A stretch of DNA of 38,244 bases from an uncultured Candidatus Poseidoniales archaeon (GTDB lineage Archaea > Thermoplasmatota > Poseidoniia > Poseidoniales > Poseidoniaceae), in the NCBI GenBank assembly GCA_905182715.1, contig CAJJCP010000024.1, positions 1-38,244 of the forward strand, written 5' to 3'. Shown one piece after another: positions 20,046 through 36,051 of this stretch. The notes beneath the pieces were generated by a model. It was not told where the DNA came from. It was given only the letters and a program-made list of their open reading frames with translations, and did no database searches. The stretch's first letter is position 1; the number at the start of each line of letters is the position of its first letter. The position numbers were made by a program, and so were the translations under genes.

Positions 20046-21341
20046 ATGGCAGAAGCGTCGGTGTTTGACCCCTCTGTCTTGGAAGGCTATTATTCAACCC
20101 AATTTGAAATCGATTTATCTTGGTTGAAAAAGCCGACTCAACATCAATTTCGCTGGCGTGTAATGGAGAACCGCTGGCATTCATCGCCTCGTCGGGTTCG
20201 TGATTCTGTCACATTGGTCAAAGCGTTTAGAAAATCCATTCCAACTGATGTCTATGTCTCAACCTCTTCATGGCTGAATCCGGTAGACCTGCCCCGACTT
20301 CACGACCTCGAAACTCCCGCACCTGTTCTTTTGGACCATTTGGTTGTATTCGATATTGATGTGCCACCCTTTTCACAAACCAACATGGAGATGGCCCGGA
20401 AATTCGCACTTGAACTGCACCAATGGATGAAAGAAAAGGACGAATATTCATTTTCACATGTCACGTTCTCGGGGAGTAAAGGATTCCACTTGTTCTACAA
20501 CGACCTTCAACGTGAGACATTCCAAATTGCAGACCCTCGTCAACGTGAAGAAGCGGTAAGAAAGGCAAGAAAGGAGTTGTTGGAAGAAGTCGTAAAGGCT
20601 GGCCATCCCGTTGACCAAAAGATTACTGCGGACACTCGTCGAATCATCCGTCTTCCAGGAACAGTACATGGTACCACTGGATGGATCTGTTCAATAATCA
20701 CTCTTGAACAACTTCAACAACCGTTCAAAACCTGGATGAGTTCACTCGAAAGACATCACTCAGCACTTATCATGCCCAAAAAAGCGAAGAGAAAGAAGTC
20801 GCTGTTTTCACGAGAAGTCAAATCGGTGCTCGTACCTGAGATTCAAACCAGCATCGAAGTAAGCACGCATATACCGGGTACAAAAAACCGTTCTGCTTTT
20901 TTCGAATGGTTACCTCGAAGTTGGGGTCCGCCTTCGGAAGCTGTCGAAAAGGCCTTGCAACTTTGTATTGAATTTTCTTTAGGCTCAACCGCCTTTTGGA
21001 CCGATGGAAAGCGAACATTGATGCTGTCCCCCCGGGCAATTCCGCGAGAACACCTTGCAAAAATTGCCAAGAAAAATGGATTTATACACTTGAAAAATGA
21101 ACTCAAAGAAAAAGACCATGCATGGATTCGAGTCTCAGGGAATTACGGTGAAAAAAGCGGCTGGGAAGAGGATTTGAGTCCAATAAATGTCTTAGCGCAA
21201 GAAACAAACTCTGAATGTAAATGGCCTTGGTCAGAGGCACATTTGAATCTAGCAGAACGGATGGGATTGCCGATCAAAAGAGATGATGGCGAAAGTGCTG
21301 GGAAGCCAGAACCATCGATACGTATTGTTCAACGTGGATAA
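20046..21341 (+). CDS. priS: DNA primase small (catalytic) subunit
   Basis: The archaeal/eukaryotic primase catalytic subunit, which makes RNA or DNA primers together with PriL. It has 431 residues, somewhat longer than many archaeal PriS. Motifs: VVFDIDVPP with metal-binding D103 and D105, FSGSKGFHLF (~141-150), and RRIIRLPGTVHGTTGW (~198-213), the nucleotide-binding RLPG.lHG motif. The first 40 residues (YYSTQFEIDLSW..., RVMENRWHSSPRRV) also match the family. The C-terminal ~130 residues are less conserved. PriL is not in this window. Confidence 0.93.
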   Translation: MAEASVFDPSVLEGYYSTQFEIDLSWLKKPTQHQFRWRVMENRWHSSPRRVRDSVTLVKAFRKSIPTDVYVSTSSWLNPVDLPRLHDLETPAPVLLDHLVVFDIDVPPFSQTNMEMARKFALELHQWMKEKDEYSFSHVTFSGSKGFHLFYNDLQRETFQIADPRQREEAVRKARKELLEEVVKAGHPVDQKITADTRRIIRLPGTVHGTTGWICSIITLEQLQQPFKTWMSSLERHHSALIMPKKAKRKKSLFSREVKSVLVPEIQTSIEVSTHIPGTKNRSAFFEWLPRSWGPPSEAVEKALQLCIEFSLGSTAFWTDGKRTLMLSPRAIPREHLAKIAKKNGFIHLKNELKEKDHAWIRVSGNYGEKSGWEEDLSPINVLAQETNSECKWPWSEAHLNLAERMGLPIKRDDGESAGKPEPSIRIVQRG

Positions 21342-21440
21342 TTAGAATCAAGAAAATGACTATATGGTGTCGGAATGAGTTAATTTCGTTCCCACCGGAG
21401 CTTCGGCAATGACGGCTGCACACGTGCCTTGAAACCACAC

Positions 21441-21471
21441 GCTGTTGGCGCATGGGAACAGCGCCAACAGC
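21441..21471 (+). promoter_or_regulatory. Perfect 11-bp hairpin before the zinc-finger membrane gene
   Basis: GCTGTTGGCGC and GCGCCAACAGC form a perfect 11-base-pair stem with a nine-base loop, ending 17 bases before the ATG at 21489. It is not followed by a T run, so a simple terminator is less likely. A 5'-UTR structure or a dimeric-protein operator would fit; neither is shown. Confidence 0.6.
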
Positions 21472-21488
21472 CCCCAAACGGAGTTAGA

Positions 21489-22502
21489 ATGAATAAATTC
21501 GGTGCCGTCATATTTTTGTTTTGCACCTTACTTTCAGGGGTTTTTGTCCTGGGAATGATGGGCTCAACAGAACGTTCGACAATTCCTGTGGATGCTGTCA
21601 TCAATGACCAAACAACGTATGATGAGTCGTACTCTTCATATTACACCTGTACTGCATATATCGGGTTCACTTACTCAGCCGATGGTGGAGATTACGAGGG
21701 CAGTACTGTTGGTTCAATGGAAAGCTCTCAGTCGTGTTTAGATGAAATTAAATCGTATTATTCAATCGACTCGGAAATTAGGATCTATTATTGGGATGAT
21801 GCGCCATCAGATTATACCTTTAATCAAGAAAGCGAAGATGCTGCTTTCCTTTACGGATGCTGTGCCGCTTTCTTTGGAATTTTGGCAGTGCTCGGGCTCG
21901 TTGTAACCTTCAGCATGGGGTCACCTGGAAGTTCAAGCACAACGGGTGGTCTTTCAGGTCGGGTTAAGAATTTGAGTGGACAAAACTCCAAACAAATTAA
22001 GCCAGAGAACGAACATTACCAGACTCTGCCATCTCAACAACACCTTTCAAGAGATACGAAATCAAAACCAAGAAACCGTTGGAAGGGAGACCGTATGACT
22101 CAAGCAAGAATTCGTAATTATGATTCCATTCTTAATCGACTGAATCTTAAAAATCGAAATCTTAGCAACATTAAGGAAGCCAAAGGATACGTCATGACAA
22201 GTGGAATAATGAATCAGAGAGAGACTGATAAATTCTTTGCCAACAGTCATGTGATCAGTACACTTGGATTACTACCAGATGGGGAATTAAAATCATCTTC
22301 AATGAGTCAAAGCAAACCAAAAGAAAATTTCTGGTCTCAAAGCAAGATTTCGACGTCAAAGGGCTCTTCAGACGGAAGTTGTGGTGATATAAGTTGTTCG
22401 AATTCCGTAGATTCATTTGATTTCCGGTGTTTTGATTGCCGTAAAAGATTCTGCAGTCAACACCGAGGAAAAACCTTCAAGTGTGCAGCATGTGCAAATT
22501 GA
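21489..22502 (+). CDS. Membrane protein with C-terminal AN1-like zinc finger
   Basis: A 337-residue protein starting MNKFGAVIFLF (the upstream frame to 21429 would place a soluble segment and the hairpin before the first helix). Membrane segments lie at about residues 4-26 and 118-142, separated by a ~90-residue Tyr/Ser/Asp-rich, presumably external domain with cysteines (TCTAY, QSCLDE). The second half is cytoplasmic, basic and Ser-rich. It ends with CGDISC...FRCFDCRKRFCSQHRGKTFKCAAC, matching the spacing and FCxxHR core of AN1 zinc fingers. Such fingers in eukaryotes bind ubiquitin-related or proteasomal partners; here the role is unknown. The end is two bases from the converging helicase gene. 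Confidence 0.75.
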   Translation: MNKFGAVIFLFCTLLSGVFVLGMMGSTERSTIPVDAVINDQTTYDESYSSYYTCTAYIGFTYSADGGDYEGSTVGSMESSQSCLDEIKSYYSIDSEIRIYYWDDAPSDYTFNQESEDAAFLYGCCAAFFGILAVLGLVVTFSMGSPGSSSTTGGLSGRVKNLSGQNSKQIKPENEHYQTLPSQQHLSRDTKSKPRNRWKGDRMTQARIRNYDSILNRLNLKNRNLSNIKEAKGYVMTSGIMNQRETDKFFANSHVISTLGLLPDGELKSSSMSQSKPKENFWSQSKISTSKGSSDGSCGDISCSNSVDSFDFRCFDCRKRFCSQHRGKTFKCAACAN

Positions 22503-22504
22503 AC

Positions 22505-25291
22505 TCACAAATAGACTTGCTTTTGATGGAGTCCAAGTTGAGGGCTCAAGTCACGTTGTAAGATCGTTCGGAGAAGTTCCTTGCCGCCATCAGTTCGCAT
22601 GTAAGTCAGTACACTTGGACTGACATGAAGTGTCCAATGTTTGAGGAAAACTTCTGCACGTTCTTTGGATGAGGCAAGCTTAGAAGGAACTGTGTGGTAC
22701 ATCTGAACATGACTTACTTCCTTGCGGAGGTATTTGGCGATGACTTCAGGCATCAATTTTGAGACCCATGTATCTTCCATGAATTGAGATGAACGAGTCA
22801 CGACATAACGTGGATTGTGAATTGATCCAAGGACTTCTTCAAGTGATTCACTAAACAGTTGAGCCTCATCAGGTGTTGAATGGTGCAAATGATAGCGAAG
22901 CCATCCTCCACCTCGCACTCCACCTTCTGGAGAACAATGTCTGGTCATCTCGCCTAATTCACAGAATGCACCGGCAATCGCTTCAGAGATAGCAAGTGTA
23001 AGTGAACTATCTGTCCACATCTCTTTCTCGGTTCCAAAACGAAAACCGCTAGAGAAACCTTCGGGTGCCTTCGCCTCGATTGCTGGACGTGATTCTGTAC
23101 CAAACGGTTGACCAATGCCCCACAACTCACGAGTATGCTCACGGTTACGTGAACGGCGTAGCATTTCTTCATTGAACAATGCCATTCCTTCACTTATTCC
23201 CTCTGGACGTACATCATTGAATGCAGCATGTACATGCCCGACTCCTTTCTCAATTGTTCCGTCATCACAAACACCGTACAATTGCTTGTGCTTTTGTTTG
23301 AAACGTTCGTAATCATCAAACCCTTTGGTAAACTCTTCTGCAATACAAATGATGTCCCAATTATTGGCAACCTTTTCAGGCCATAATTTATCAATTCGAA
23401 TTGAACGCCCCCTAAGTTGGTTAATACTTACACTCGTTGTAACGGAGGTCATATCAATTAAAACATTGATTCGAGAAGCATCCCACCCTTCCCCAAGTAA
23501 TCCACGAGTACCGACCAGACATCGGGTAAAACCTTCTTGGAAGAATTCGGTAATCATCAATGAATAATAACGAGGAATCCAATCTTTTCCTTTACCATCA
23601 ATTTCATGAAAACCTTGGTGTGGGCGGTGTTCGAGTCTGATATCAAGTTCTCTTTCTGCAATCCAAAGTTCTGCTTTAGTGATGAAACGTTCACATAAAT
23701 CATCGTCGACAAGAACTGTACTTCCGGTCATCAAAATTGGATCGAGGTAATCTCCAGCAGGATGATTCACTAAAGACCGTAACACCGAAATCGCACCTCC
23801 AGCTTCGGCATCTAAAACCCCTTCAACAAGGGTGGTAGCGGAAGTTTTTTCATAATCAGTAACAATGACTGCACGAATGCCTTTTCCAAGTGTCTGCATC
23901 TCGACATTGATGATCTCATTGACTGCTTCAGTTTTAGCCGATGCGTAGGACATAACACGGCCCACTGGTGAAGCACATGGTCTGGAACCAGTATCAGTGA
24001 TTTGAACGCCGAGCATTCGCAAACGTGCAACTACAGATTCTGCCAATGCATGATCTTCTTTCTTCTTTGAACGTCGAAGACCGTGTCGAACATACCGAGA
24101 GAGCACATTTCGAAGCATACTTATTCGAGTGAAAGATTCGTCCTTTTCAAAAGAATATATGTCTGGAACACCTGCTGGTAATTGAATCGAGTTCAATTGT
24201 AAAAAACGACGACCATCAAGTGTGAATGCGGGATATTTACGCTCGTATTTGTCCCAAGTTAGCGTCTCACCACTCGGAGACTCTCGTTCCTTTAATTCGT
24301 TGAGTACCCATTGGTCAAGCGGTGGTATACGGCCTGGCTTCGCACTCTCATTGGGCTCACGCAACTCGCGAAGTAGCGATTCAAACTCTTCATCGACACT
24401 CGCAATATACTGCAGCTCATGACTCGCTGGTCGAACAAAATAGCACAAATCTTGGTAAGGTGCAAGATTCGAATCCCGAACCAGTGCAGGTACGGGAACG
24501 CTGTAATCAACAGGTCCAAAGAATTCCTCATAACGTTCGACATCGGCCTCTTTGAATCCTCCCTTTTCGGGAGGGGGTGTTGCCGTTAATCCGAGAATAA
24601 CAGGGTCGTCAAACATATCTCGAACTTCGGCAAGGATTCGGCCCCAATGATGCATTAAATGATGACATTCGTCTAAGATGATGAGTCCAATTCCAGCTTC
24701 TTTAAGCAAAAGAAGATTCTCTTTTGCACTTTCATGTAAAGTCCATAATGCATTACCATGTTCAGAATACTCATCCCGTACTTTTTTCCTATATTTCGAG
24801 AGTTGCTTGTCATAATACTTCTCATTTCGTTCACCTAAATCATTGAGCCAAGACATGCCTTCTTGGTGGTCCGAAGCTTCGCCGTCTGCAATAAGTTTCT
24901 CGGCCCATAATTCAAGCGCCACTGCGTCCAGATCTTCACCACCTTTGCGAGGCATGGTCACCGATTGATAGGTCAATGAAGTGAGTAGACCTGGCTTTTT
25001 AGGGTCAGTACTGATGAATTCATCTTTCCCGTCTAAATCAAAAAGTGAGGTGCGTGCAGCCCATTGTGCTTGTATTGCCGAGTTTGGTGACAACACTAAC
25101 GCGGGCTTTCGAACTAAATCGGACCAGACATACAGCCCAAGAACGGTTTTCCCCGAACCTGGCGGGGCAACGATATGTAATCGCTTCTTTCCAGATTCAA
25201 GTTGCGGTATGATGACTGAACTTGCAGCGACTTGTGCCGGCCGGAGTGTTCCTGAAAAATGAATTTTACCAAAATCTGGTAAATCGTCCAT
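22505..25291 (-). CDS. SF2 DEAD/H-box helicase (XPB/type III restriction-like)
   Basis: A 928-residue superfamily 2 helicase. Walker A is APPGSGKT (42-49), motif Ia ALVLSPNSAIQAQW, motif II DECHH (207-211), motif III GLTATPP, and motifs V-VI GLLGEGWDASRINVLID and QLRGRSIRID (~625-634). This is the order and form of COG1061-type helicases (XPB, type III restriction R subunits). An insert of ~100 charged residues lies between Ia and II. The last ~250 residues have no motif I recognise, and no nuclease motif is evident. It is 18 bases downstream of the zinc-ribbon gene, so the two are probably one operon. A DNA or RNA repair/remodelling role is inferred. Confidence 0.88.
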   Translation of the reverse strand: MDDLPDFGKIHFSGTLRPAQVAASSVIIPQLESGKKRLHIVAPPGSGKTVLGLYVWSDLVRKPALVLSPNSAIQAQWAARTSLFDLDGKDEFISTDPKKPGLLTSLTYQSVTMPRKGGEDLDAVALELWAEKLIADGEASDHQEGMSWLNDLGERNEKYYDKQLSKYRKKVRDEYSEHGNALWTLHESAKENLLLLKEAGIGLIILDECHHLMHHWGRILAEVRDMFDDPVILGLTATPPPEKGGFKEADVERYEEFFGPVDYSVPVPALVRDSNLAPYQDLCYFVRPASHELQYIASVDEEFESLLRELREPNESAKPGRIPPLDQWVLNELKERESPSGETLTWDKYERKYPAFTLDGRRFLQLNSIQLPAGVPDIYSFEKDESFTRISMLRNVLSRYVRHGLRRSKKKEDHALAESVVARLRMLGVQITDTGSRPCASPVGRVMSYASAKTEAVNEIINVEMQTLGKGIRAVIVTDYEKTSATTLVEGVLDAEAGGAISVLRSLVNHPAGDYLDPILMTGSTVLVDDDLCERFITKAELWIAERELDIRLEHRPHQGFHEIDGKGKDWIPRYYSLMITEFFQEGFTRCLVGTRGLLGEGWDASRINVLIDMTSVTTSVSINQLRGRSIRIDKLWPEKVANNWDIICIAEEFTKGFDDYERFKQKHKQLYGVCDDGTIEKGVGHVHAAFNDVRPEGISEGMALFNEEMLRRSRNREHTRELWGIGQPFGTESRPAIEAKAPEGFSSGFRFGTEKEMWTDSSLTLAISEAIAGAFCELGEMTRHCSPEGGVRGGGWLRYHLHHSTPDEAQLFSESLEEVLGSIHNPRYVVTRSSQFMEDTWVSKLMPEVIAKYLRKEVSHVQMYHTVPSKLASSKERAEVFLKHWTLHVSPSVLTYMRTDGGKELLRTILQRDLSPQLGLHQKQVYL

Positions 25292-35313: not shown

Positions 35314-36051
35314 ATGGCCAACATAATCGTCCTCGTTAAACAAGTACCTGATACCAATGCTCGTATCGTCCTCTCTGGCGACCGAGTCGACCTTTCTGCT
35401 GTCAAAAAAGTCATGAGTCCTTACGATGAATTTGCGGTAGAAAACGCACTCCAACATCGCGAATCAAGCGGTGGTGAAGTAACTGCAATCACCGTCGGAG
35501 GCGCAGGTGCAGACAAAGTATTGAAAGATGCGAAAGCGATTGGTGTTGACAACATTGTCCGTATTGATTGCGATGCTCAACTCGATTCAAATTCACTCCA
35601 ATCAATCCTCGCATCAGTCATCTCAAGCCTTGGCGCAGAAGTCGTCTATTGCGGAAAGTCTGCTGCAGATACTGGTGCAGGCTCCACTGGACCTGGATTG
35701 GCTGAACGACTCGGCTGGGCTTCTGTTTCAAACTCAACAAGTGTTGAGTTTGGTGAACAACTCTCCGTCGTCACCCCATCTGCTGGAGGAAATGCTCGAA
35801 TCAATGTACCTCTACCAGCAGTGGTCTCCTGTGACAAGGGCAACATCAAGGTTCGAAAGCCAAATGTCAAAGGAATTATGCAAGCAAAGAAGGCTCAAGT
35901 CGATGTTCGTAGCGTTGATGTTCCTGTTTCGACTGTTTCGGTCGTAGCACACAGTATGCCTCCTGCAAAACCTGCAGGCAAATCCTATCAAGGTGGCGCA
36001 GCAGCAGCTGAAGTCGCTCAACTCCTCCGAGATGAGGCAAACGTAATTTGA
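35314..36051 (+). CDS. etfB: Electron transfer flavoprotein beta subunit
   Basis: The AMP-binding subunit of ETF, which carries electrons from acyl-CoA dehydrogenases to the respiratory chain. From MANIIVLVKQVPDTNARIVL (ATG 35314) it has 245 residues; the frame extends back to 35254 without support. Visible: SPYDEFAVENALQ, KDAKAIGVDNIVRID, YCGKSAADTGAGSTGPGLAERLG (nucleotide-binding) and the C-terminal VKGIMQAKKA that resembles the recognition-loop region. etfA starts 10 bases after its stop, so the two form an operon. Confidence 0.94.
   Translation: MANIIVLVKQVPDTNARIVLSGDRVDLSAVKKVMSPYDEFAVENALQHRESSGGEVTAITVGGAGADKVLKDAKAIGVDNIVRIDCDAQLDSNSLQSILASVISSLGAEVVYCGKSAADTGAGSTGPGLAERLGWASVSNSTSVEFGEQLSVVTPSAGGNARINVPLPAVVSCDKGNIKVRKPNVKGIMQAKKAQVDVRSVDVPVSTVSVVAHSMPPAKPAGKSYQGGAAAAEVAQLLRDEANVI

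Follow-up and report, generated by a model that had tools for sequence, protein, structure and literature searches.

The window of this study, by which the whole analyzed stretch of 38,244 nucleotides is meant, is a contig (C24) of a Poseidoniales (Marine Group II) assembly that is 1.78 Mb in size and 73% complete. Sequence comparison suggests that its forward strand carries a cassette of three parts, which are a gene for a PriS paralog, a structured RNA and a gene for a protein with a small domain referred to as the 'Y...LGL' domain. The features of this region are as follows.

20046–21341, forward strand: PriS paralog, gene 1 of the cassette, assigned to the archaeo-eukaryotic primase fold by profile score and motifs
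21360–21365, forward strand: TATA-like box CTATAT, at -28 to -23 relative to the start of the RNA
21388–21471, forward strand: structured RNA of 84 nt (83–100 nt in relatives), identified with covariance models R1–R3
21388–21394, forward strand: 5' strand of P1 (GUUCCCA), which pairs and covaries with 21453–21459
21395–21415, forward strand: kink-turn CCG-GA-GC[UUCG]GC-AAU-GA-CGG, recognized from its GA steps, its bulge and a covarying NC pair
21418–21427, forward strand: P3, a short variable hairpin GCA[CACG]UGC, recognized from a base swap and stem statistics
21441–21471, forward strand: P2, the 11-bp hairpin that was flagged first (loop 21452–21460), recognized from self-pairing, covariation and fold energy
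21453–21459, forward strand: 3' strand of P1 (UGGGAAC) inside the P2 loop, a pseudoknot pairing
21480–21483, forward strand: Shine-Dalgarno-like GGAG between P2 and the start codon, recognized from sequence
21489–22502, forward strand: membrane protein of 337 amino acid residues, gene 3 of the cassette, with a helix (residues 3–25), a beta ectodomain (31–110), a second helix (117–142), the 'Y...LGL' domain (205–261) and a finger (298–335)
22101–22271, forward strand: helical 'Y...LGL' domain of about 57 amino acid residues (residues 205–261), profile E value 4.5e-19
22380–22493, forward strand: AN1-like zinc finger, C-x4-C-x10-C-x2-C-x4-C-x2-H-x6-C-x2-C
22505–25291, reverse strand: superfamily 2 helicase (ResIII), a convergent neighbor, identified by profile match

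The original prediction had singled out a perfect 11-bp hairpin 17 bases upstream of the start codon. Its arms (21441–21451 and 21461–21471) are indeed 11 nt each, 100% complementary and separated by a 9-nt loop, and the ATG at position 21489 is 17 nt past the stem. The hairpin had also been described as unlike anything else between the genes of the window, and it is the sole perfect stem of at least 11 bp (loops of 3–12 nt) in the 38 kb. The only other perfect 10-bp stem, at 35729–35752, is within a reading frame. The fold energy of the hairpin had a z of -6.57, and none of 200 shuffles was equally good. A first-order Markov control of window length (40 runs) yielded a mean of 0.275 perfect stems of at least 11 bp, with a maximum of 4. 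Because 0.275 such stems are expected per 38 kb, stem length alone is weak evidence, and it is conservation that makes the hairpin significant. The base identities of 13 aligned relatives to positions 21388–21471 of the window ranged from 82 to 100%, and those of their proteins that were compared were 40–57% identical, with 73 and 91% for the closest two. As to the conservation expected upstream of orthologs, 15 of the 26 loci compared (L032–L042, L046, L047, L052, and L054, of which L032 and L033 are from one genome) had the stem 17–19 nt ahead of the start. Of the remaining 11, three began intragenically or in a run of N, and eight were more distant and had no such stem within 140 nt. The contigs of these eight, recognized by their lengths, contained the RNA after all, 135–151 nt upstream of the gene. 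Thus, the leader hairpin is real and conserved, but it was an incomplete account of the leader: covariation points to P2 as merely the last, 3' helix of a larger, pseudoknotted kink-turn RNA.

In the alignment of 89 loci, which includes the window, the order of elements is the 5' strand of P1, the kink-turn, P3, a C-rich linker and P2. The P2 loop AUGGGAACA can pair with UGUUCCCA or CGUUCCCA, with which the conserved block begins, and the two sides covary. Of 1562 pair cells, 96.3% were standard pairs, 15 of 19 pairs were changed on both sides, and none of 500 shuffles reached as high. When the NC helix was added, 93.3% of 1823 cells were standard pairs, and 17 of 22 pairs were changed on both sides. 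The cells with changes on both sides numbered 302 vs. 82.4 in the shuffles, none of 500 being as high (89 sequences, 87 of them distinct); these shuffles, like the co-occurrence counts given below, ignore the relatedness of the sequences. When the partner was shifted by one, two or three columns, pairing fell from 93.3 to 31.9–43.2%. The alignment was fitted to a model that contained P0 and P2, and these helices are hence favored. The helices outside the fitting model still paired, with 91.2% of cells for the pseudoknot and 75.1% for the NC helix. The best run of P1 was at least 5 bp in 85 of 89 sequences and 4 bp in the other four, and its mean was 6.0 bp vs. 4.64 bp for permuted partners (maximum 4.92 in 1000 permutations). 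In the P3 region the mean best stem was 5.1 bp vs. 3.9 bp after shuffling (83 distinct sequences), and U-A replaced A-U in L040. A first P0 pairing, of columns 8–11 with 16–19 of alignment A3 (model R1), was consistent in close relatives; it was dropped when the diverse set was found to have G(N)C-loop-G(N)C instead, and the kink-turn reading came next. UUCG and GAAA/GGAA tetraloops were interchanged across relatives and G-U pairs were present, which is consistent with an RNA and not with a DNA site. In the J region, an unpaired A at column 75 was found in 86 of 89 sequences. Comparison among relatives thus settles, at the level of sequence, that an RNA of this predicted fold has been strongly selected as part of the cassette.

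A search of the window with the 4227 models of Rfam release 15 found only a tRNA at gathering score, for which the gene is at 1389–1461 (RF00005). The best matches to the leader were at chance level (E values of 0.64 and 4.5), and the search with the RNAs of 12 divergent relatives produced one match, elsewhere in the locus (E value of 0.75).

The element at 21395–21415 agrees with the definition of a kink-turn as a three-base bulge followed by tandem G:A and A:G pairs (PMC8191799, cited in part) in all 89 sequences. A tandem GA step was found on each strand, and the last base of the bulge was U, in 89 of 89. Both flanking helices were also identified. In the C helix, which is capped by UUCG, GAAA, UUAG and other loops, 99.2% of cells were paired. 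The NC pair 4n:4b was standard in 84 of 87 distinct rows (22 AU, 21 GC, 20 CG, 20 UA, and 1 GU), and the outer NC pair was standard in only 44 of 87. At 3b:3n, 69 of the 89 sequences had the Watson-Crick pair C:G and 20 a non-Watson-Crick combination (19 C:A and 1 C:C). By the published rules, a Watson-Crick C:G pair at 3b:3n folds poorly with ions alone (PMC8191799, cited in part), and the 69 kink-turns would therefore need a protein to fold. L7Ae-family genes were present at two loci.

L7Ae binds kink-turns of 5' leaders in archaea and represses translation, according to the cited parts of PMC6298567 and PMC5539422. Similar to these l7ae leaders, the RNA of the window has a kink-turn in what would be the 5' leader of an archaeal gene, close to the start codon. 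As far as the cited parts of these two papers describe them, both have a three-base bulge followed by tandem G:A pairs, which is GAU in the l7ae leaders and GAU in 29 and AAU in 45 of the 89 sequences here, and both have a 3b:3n pair that would require protein for folding (here in the 69 sequences). Different from the l7ae leaders described there, the kink-turn is within an 83–100-nt pseudoknotted RNA, and it ends at 21415, about 65 nt before the Shine-Dalgarno-like motif at 21480, so that its stem does not overlap the ribosome binding site. In addition, -1b:-1n is C:G in 86 of 89 sequences and in none of the six l7ae leaders given there, and the gene that would be controlled is not l7ae.

At each of the positions from -28 to -25 relative to the RNA, G+C was at most 7% among the 89 loci. 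With an A/T box at such a distance, archaeal transcription would begin at the first base of the RNA. The strict word [TC]T[TA]TA, beginning at -31 to -27, was found in 57 of 89 loci and was absent from 32. The distance between the end of P2 and the chosen start codon was less than 60 nt in 72 of 83 relatives, with a median of 18 nt for those 72, and it was 13–23 nt in 64 of 83. A Shine-Dalgarno-like motif was picked in 65 of 83 by a script that ran without a chance control. Sequestration of the Shine-Dalgarno motif by the conserved CC-rich J region was considered and rejected, as the pairing was 4.11 bp vs. 4.36 bp when permuted. A clade of 11 loci has the gene 135–151 nt beyond the RNA (10 of 11 measured). 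In this long-spacer clade, P2 is followed by a T-run in 8 of 11 loci, compared with 9 of 79 elsewhere, and a second promoter-like box TGAAAGAYTATGTGCT is present about 43 nt past P2 in 10 of 11, L085 being the one without it. Compensatory changes are kept in the clade (L092, L098, and L100/L135, by eye). In these loci the RNA may lie outside the mRNA, judging from the boxes and runs around it.

The product of gene 3 had been described as a two-helix membrane protein with an external Tyr/Ser/Asp-rich domain, and both parts of this description hold. The helices at residues 3–25 and 117–142 flank the beta ectodomain, and Y, S and D make up 42% of residues 26–116 vs. 26% of the whole protein. The ectodomain (31–110) has weak similarity to DUF3592. 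Since the ectodomain of a relative (L123:426-1580) passes the Pfam cut-off for DUF3592 (31.5 vs. 25.3 bits), the Tyr/Ser/Asp-rich domain of the window probably belongs to this family. Structure matches of the ectodomain were middling (best Z of 8.5 over 66 residues), and no relationship is claimed from them.

The C-terminal finger had been assigned to the AN1 type. PF01428 matched residues 298–326 with an E value of 0.004, but the score of 17.7 bits was below the gathering cut-off of 27.9, and four relatives that matched zf-AN1 scored 16.0–17.2 bits. The AN1 ligand pattern is C-x(2-4)-C-x(9-12)-C-x(1-2)-C-x4-C-x2-H, with H-x-C as the last pair. The first six ligands had AN1 positions and spacing (C-x4-C-x10-C-x2-C-x4-C-x2-H) in 50 of 68 matched sequences, including the window, and the finger H was replaced by C in 18 of 68. 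Different from AN1, the last pair was C-x2-C in 68 of 69 finger sequences (L068 had neither form), which gives the finger of the window seven cysteines and one histidine as ligands, and the finger is replaced or absent in many cassette proteins. A search of the finger profile against solved structures found no match. Judged by these predicted ligands it is at most a variant, AN1-like zinc finger, and membership in zf-AN1 is not claimed. Nor did the finger turn out to be the key feature of the locus: the RNA goes with the domain at residues 205–261, and relatives without the finger still carry the RNA. The finger was identified in 74 of 94 loci, the 20 without a match including at least three cut or interrupted genes (L080, L145, and L157); in some members a different small cysteine cluster is present, and others lack a finger. 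A paralog in L184 (G042:C21:23900-26600), which is preceded by a sucD-like frame, has both the ectodomain and a finger-like tail. It lacks the 'Y...LGL' domain, and no convincing RNA was found there (best match of 5.0 bits, E value of 1.5, 14 nt).

The 'Y...LGL' domain is characterized by an invariant tyrosine (Y211 in the window) and an end that is mostly LGL/LGW-like. With an HMM trained on the proteins encoded after the RNA, it was found in 88 of the 94 downstream loci that had an open frame of at least 60 amino acid residues in reach. Of the six misses, L085, L118 and L158 were cut contigs or had a run of N, and L084/L104 (one locus) and L150 had a divergent domain by eye. Three types of downstream protein were found, which are two-helix proteins with a beta ectodomain, proteins of 210–260 amino acid residues with N-terminal hydrophobic stretches (by eye), and proteins of 88–130 amino acid residues that begin with a short, amphipathic-looking stretch (by eye). 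The domain thus appears, from its distribution in the alignments, to be obligatory in the cassette protein and the AN1-like finger optional. No Pfam family matched the domain above its cut-off, and one small domain protein scored 19.3 bits with RecX_HTH1 (cut-off of 26). When modeled alone, the domain had a pLDDT of 62 and no Foldseek match at E < 3, and its profile had no convincing match among solved structures (best E value of 0.13). In the genera g10 and g3 (L150, L151, and L186–L189), a conserved tail, EWTDF..WYR...PGPW, with W or E variants, comes after the domain. Among 318 genomes, the profile, which was built from RNA-linked proteins (A7), found the domain in 124 at E ≤ 0.01 and in 120 at E ≤ 2.6e-5. 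At E ≤ 3.5e-5 for the RNA and E ≤ 2.6e-5 for the domain, weaker matches being omitted, 115 genomes had both, 4 the RNA only, 5 the domain only and 194 neither. The four with the RNA only were G121 and G212, in which it is at contig ends, and G129 and G163, with a divergent domain or a split contig. Of those with the domain only, G049 and G075 were cut upstream. In the other three (G025, G166, and G196) as well as in G164 and G165, the RNA was found ahead of the domain gene with the search filters off.

Gene 1 of the cassette scored 22.5 bits with DNA_primase_S (PF01896; cut-off of 26.8) and 35.5 bits with TIGR00335 (cut-off of 143.5). Similar to PriS, it keeps the primase-fold motifs FDID, SGSKGFH (SGxKGFH) and DTRR (D...R), of which the DxD, SGxxGxH and D/R motifs are taken by us to be catalytic. 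D103, D105 and S142-G143-K145-G146-F147-H148 were invariant in all 14 aligned sequences, including that of the window, and so were D190, D196, R199, R202, and H208. By these residues the PriS paralog looks intact. Different from PriS, it is below the cut-offs of the family, and the canonical PriS is encoded by a separate gene of the same genome (G000:C13:17431-18126, 60.7 bits). In all 16 sampled loci, which were read over 6–18 kb, the PriS paralog immediately precedes the RNA and has the same orientation. The gap between the two, counted from the last aligned codon, ranged from 33 to 82 nt (median of 39) in 111 of 111 pairs, which were hand-picked PriS matches that share a contig with an RNA match; matches on other contigs and the double matches of G086 were left out, and so were G025 and G164–G166. 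Among the 318 genomes, 121 had both the PriS paralog and the RNA, 12 the PriS paralog only, 3 the RNA only and 182 neither, a count that includes five genomes found with filters off (124 RNA genomes in total). In the three with the RNA only (G118, G127, and G196), the contig extends less than 300 bases upstream, and in the 12 with the PriS paralog only, the genes were, by eye, partial or within 100 bases of a contig end.

A homolog of the helicase is convergently downstream in 13 of the 16 sampled loci and may or may not belong to the cassette. A gene of 123 amino acid residues with two archaeal-histone-like repeats (by eye) comes after the cassette in L191 (G129:C21:44000-52000). PADLOC had no match at E ≤ 0.1 for the PriS paralog, the protein of the window or two other domain proteins, and it matched the helicase weakly (E value of 0.0005). 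A known defense system was set aside for lack of a PADLOC match to the PriS paralog or the domain proteins. In viral contigs, the exact core pattern of the RNA was not found, and one partial relative of the PriS paralog was found but no other. The phage records contained no relative of the membrane protein at E ≤ 1. A viral origin was set aside on the lack of viral matches to the RNA core and the membrane protein.

The RNA occurs in 124 of the 318 Poseidoniales genomes and in a single type of cassette, with exceptions that are at cut contigs or have a divergent domain. A first covariance model, from 14 leaders, had matched 45 genomes at E ≤ 0.1, of which G268 and G275 were then rejected. A second, from 28 sequences, matched 131 at E ≤ 0.1 and, among these, 119 at E ≤ 3.5e-5. 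There was one strong copy per genome, except for G086 with two near-identical short contigs. The cassette occurs in genera of both families, yet is absent from many genomes of those genera. Some of this patchiness is due to genome incompleteness; among the 35 genomes with a completeness of 90% or more and a contamination of 5% or less, 13 had no RNA match at E ≤ 0.1 and 14 no PriS paralog, and G169, which is one of the 35, had only a rejected RNA match. When 389 genomes of the phylum were searched with model R3, the only matches outside the order had E values of 4.8e-4, 0.0021 and 0.0046. These three and 14 weak matches within the order (G013, G029, the second of G063, G155, G168, G169, G216, G235, the second of G249, G258, G268, G275, G277, and G278) were all rejected on reading. 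All 17 were wholly inside stop-free frames of 148–828 codons, a test that does not discriminate alone, given that true RNAs were in stop-free frames of 372 (window), 88 and 52 codons. The last 35 nt of the rejected matches formed stems of 5–9 bp, with one of 11 bp (G235), and those of three true RNAs stems of 11–12 bp. Beyond the 17 that were read, there were further weak matches in G028, G053 (second), G104 (second), G124, G139 (second), G235 (second), and G315, and a second one in G052 (C10). A weak match in G063 (L180, G063:C151:21398-21503, E value of 0.0057) had no long stem and was upstream of a nucleotidyltransferase-like gene.

The reading of these results that we place slightly ahead, with a probability of roughly 0.42, is a 5' leader that would act in cis, be transcribed from a promoter of its own and block ribosome loading when its kink-turn is bound. 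The RNA would then be the 5' end of the mRNA, and L7Ae would bind and fold the kink-turn. The bound kink-turn, perhaps together with the encoded domain, would lock the 5' end onto the P2 loop, and the stacked P1/P2 block would stop a few bases before the Shine-Dalgarno motif and hinder 30S loading, so that the protein would limit its own synthesis or be made only when the RNA is free. A cis leader is favored by the position of the RNA close to the start codon, by the TATA-like box at -28, which is suitably placed for transcription to start with the RNA, by the archaeal precedent of L7Ae on leader kink-turns, and because the protein encoded after the RNA keeps the same domain and varies elsewhere. 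Self-regulation is supported by the single strong copy in each genome and the single type of target gene, and the C:G pairs at 3b:3n, which by the published rules would need protein to fold, also count in favor of this reading. Similar to autoregulatory leaders of the ribosomal-protein type, for which it is well established, one gene family goes with one RNA class just upstream of the start. Different from such leaders, the gene encodes a domain that is often attached to the membrane, and the RNA is also tied to the PriS paralog. Control of the third gene alone would leave this tie unexplained, which weakens the case for a leader, as do the second promoter-like box and T-run of the long-spacer clade, the failure of the J region to sequester the Shine-Dalgarno motif, the 20 of 89 kink-turns with a non-Watson-Crick 3b:3n and the 32 of 89 loci without the strict TATA word. 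An orphan riboswitch for a metabolite or ion, ahead of a membrane sensor gene, would also be expected at a 5' end. A pseudoknot with a kink-turn is a common aptamer architecture, kink-turns being known from at least seven riboswitches (PMC4316175, cited in part), and the unpaired A at column 75 is the kind of conserved base that would suit one. Such a riboswitch is nevertheless improbable with no enzyme or transporter downstream, no Rfam match and one strong copy per genome on one kind of gene, whereas a riboswitch class commonly controls several genes from the same pathway.

The chief rival of the leader is a free RNA of about 90 nt, made or trimmed separately and held by L7Ae at its kink-turn, that would act in trans with the PriS paralog and/or the membrane-anchored domain protein. 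This is a tentative but serious alternative. The PriS paralog and the RNA come and go together, the gap between them is short in every pair examined, and the long-spacer clade has a promoter-like box for the RNA, the T-run and the second box as well as the kept fold. L7Ae also binds kink-turns of many archaeal non-coding RNAs (PMC5539422, cited in part). Similar to the RNA of this study, the OLE RNA with OapA/OapC is a conserved kink-turn RNA with membrane-associated proteins, but it is about 600 nt and bacterial in the cited parts of PMC9723947 and PMC12265935, whereas the RNA here is 83–100 nt, archaeal and has no Rfam match. A free RNA would resemble that system or the polymerase-plus-RNA cassettes. 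However, P2 ends 13–23 nt before the chosen start in most relatives, mostly with a Shine-Dalgarno-like motif between, in the fashion of a leader, the T-run is rare outside the long-spacer clade, and RNA binding by the PriS paralog or the domain protein is purely conjectural. A machine of primase-polymerase, structured RNA and membrane protein goes further and is unlikely, although its occurrence in part of the Poseidoniales resembles that of accessory or defense systems. In it, the kink-turn RNA would be a free partner that the PriS paralog uses or by which it is controlled, and the third gene would be a sensor or effector of which the small domain is kept and the anchor and finger vary. Finally, a hairpin shortly after a gene, with T-runs following in 17 of 90 loci, could be a protein-binding inverted repeat or the terminator of the PriS paralog, a DNA element with no RNA function. 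This is already disfavored and highly improbable given the covariation of pseudoknot and kink-turn, the tetraloop swaps, the G-U pairs and the TATA-like box between the PriS stop codon and the RNA.

Kink-turns, pseudoknots and leader RNAs have been described before; for their combination here, its partner domain and the tie to an extra primase, there was no match in Rfam, Pfam, NCBIfam, PADLOC or the literature searched. In that literature, whose scope excluded subscription journals and preprints, no paper was found that combines structured RNA and riboswitches with Marine Group II, and searches for Poseidoniales noncoding RNA returned only papers on other subjects. To our knowledge, reports of archaeal structured RNA classes with deep covariation are rare, and RNA-level control is poorly understood in Marine Group II, a common group of archaea in the surface ocean. 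This analysis also defines a small protein domain for which there is no Pfam family at cut-off. The RNA appears to be a novel RNA-based regulatory element or ribonucleoprotein machine, and there is a real chance that its cassette is more than a variant of the known leader RNAs. Its strict gene partner and its tie to an extra primase lead to testable hypotheses, which are control by an archaeal leader with a kink-turn and a pseudoknot, or an RNA-protein machine involving a primase. The latter, if true, would be an archaeal counterpart of the polymerase-plus-RNA cassettes built on a primase fold.
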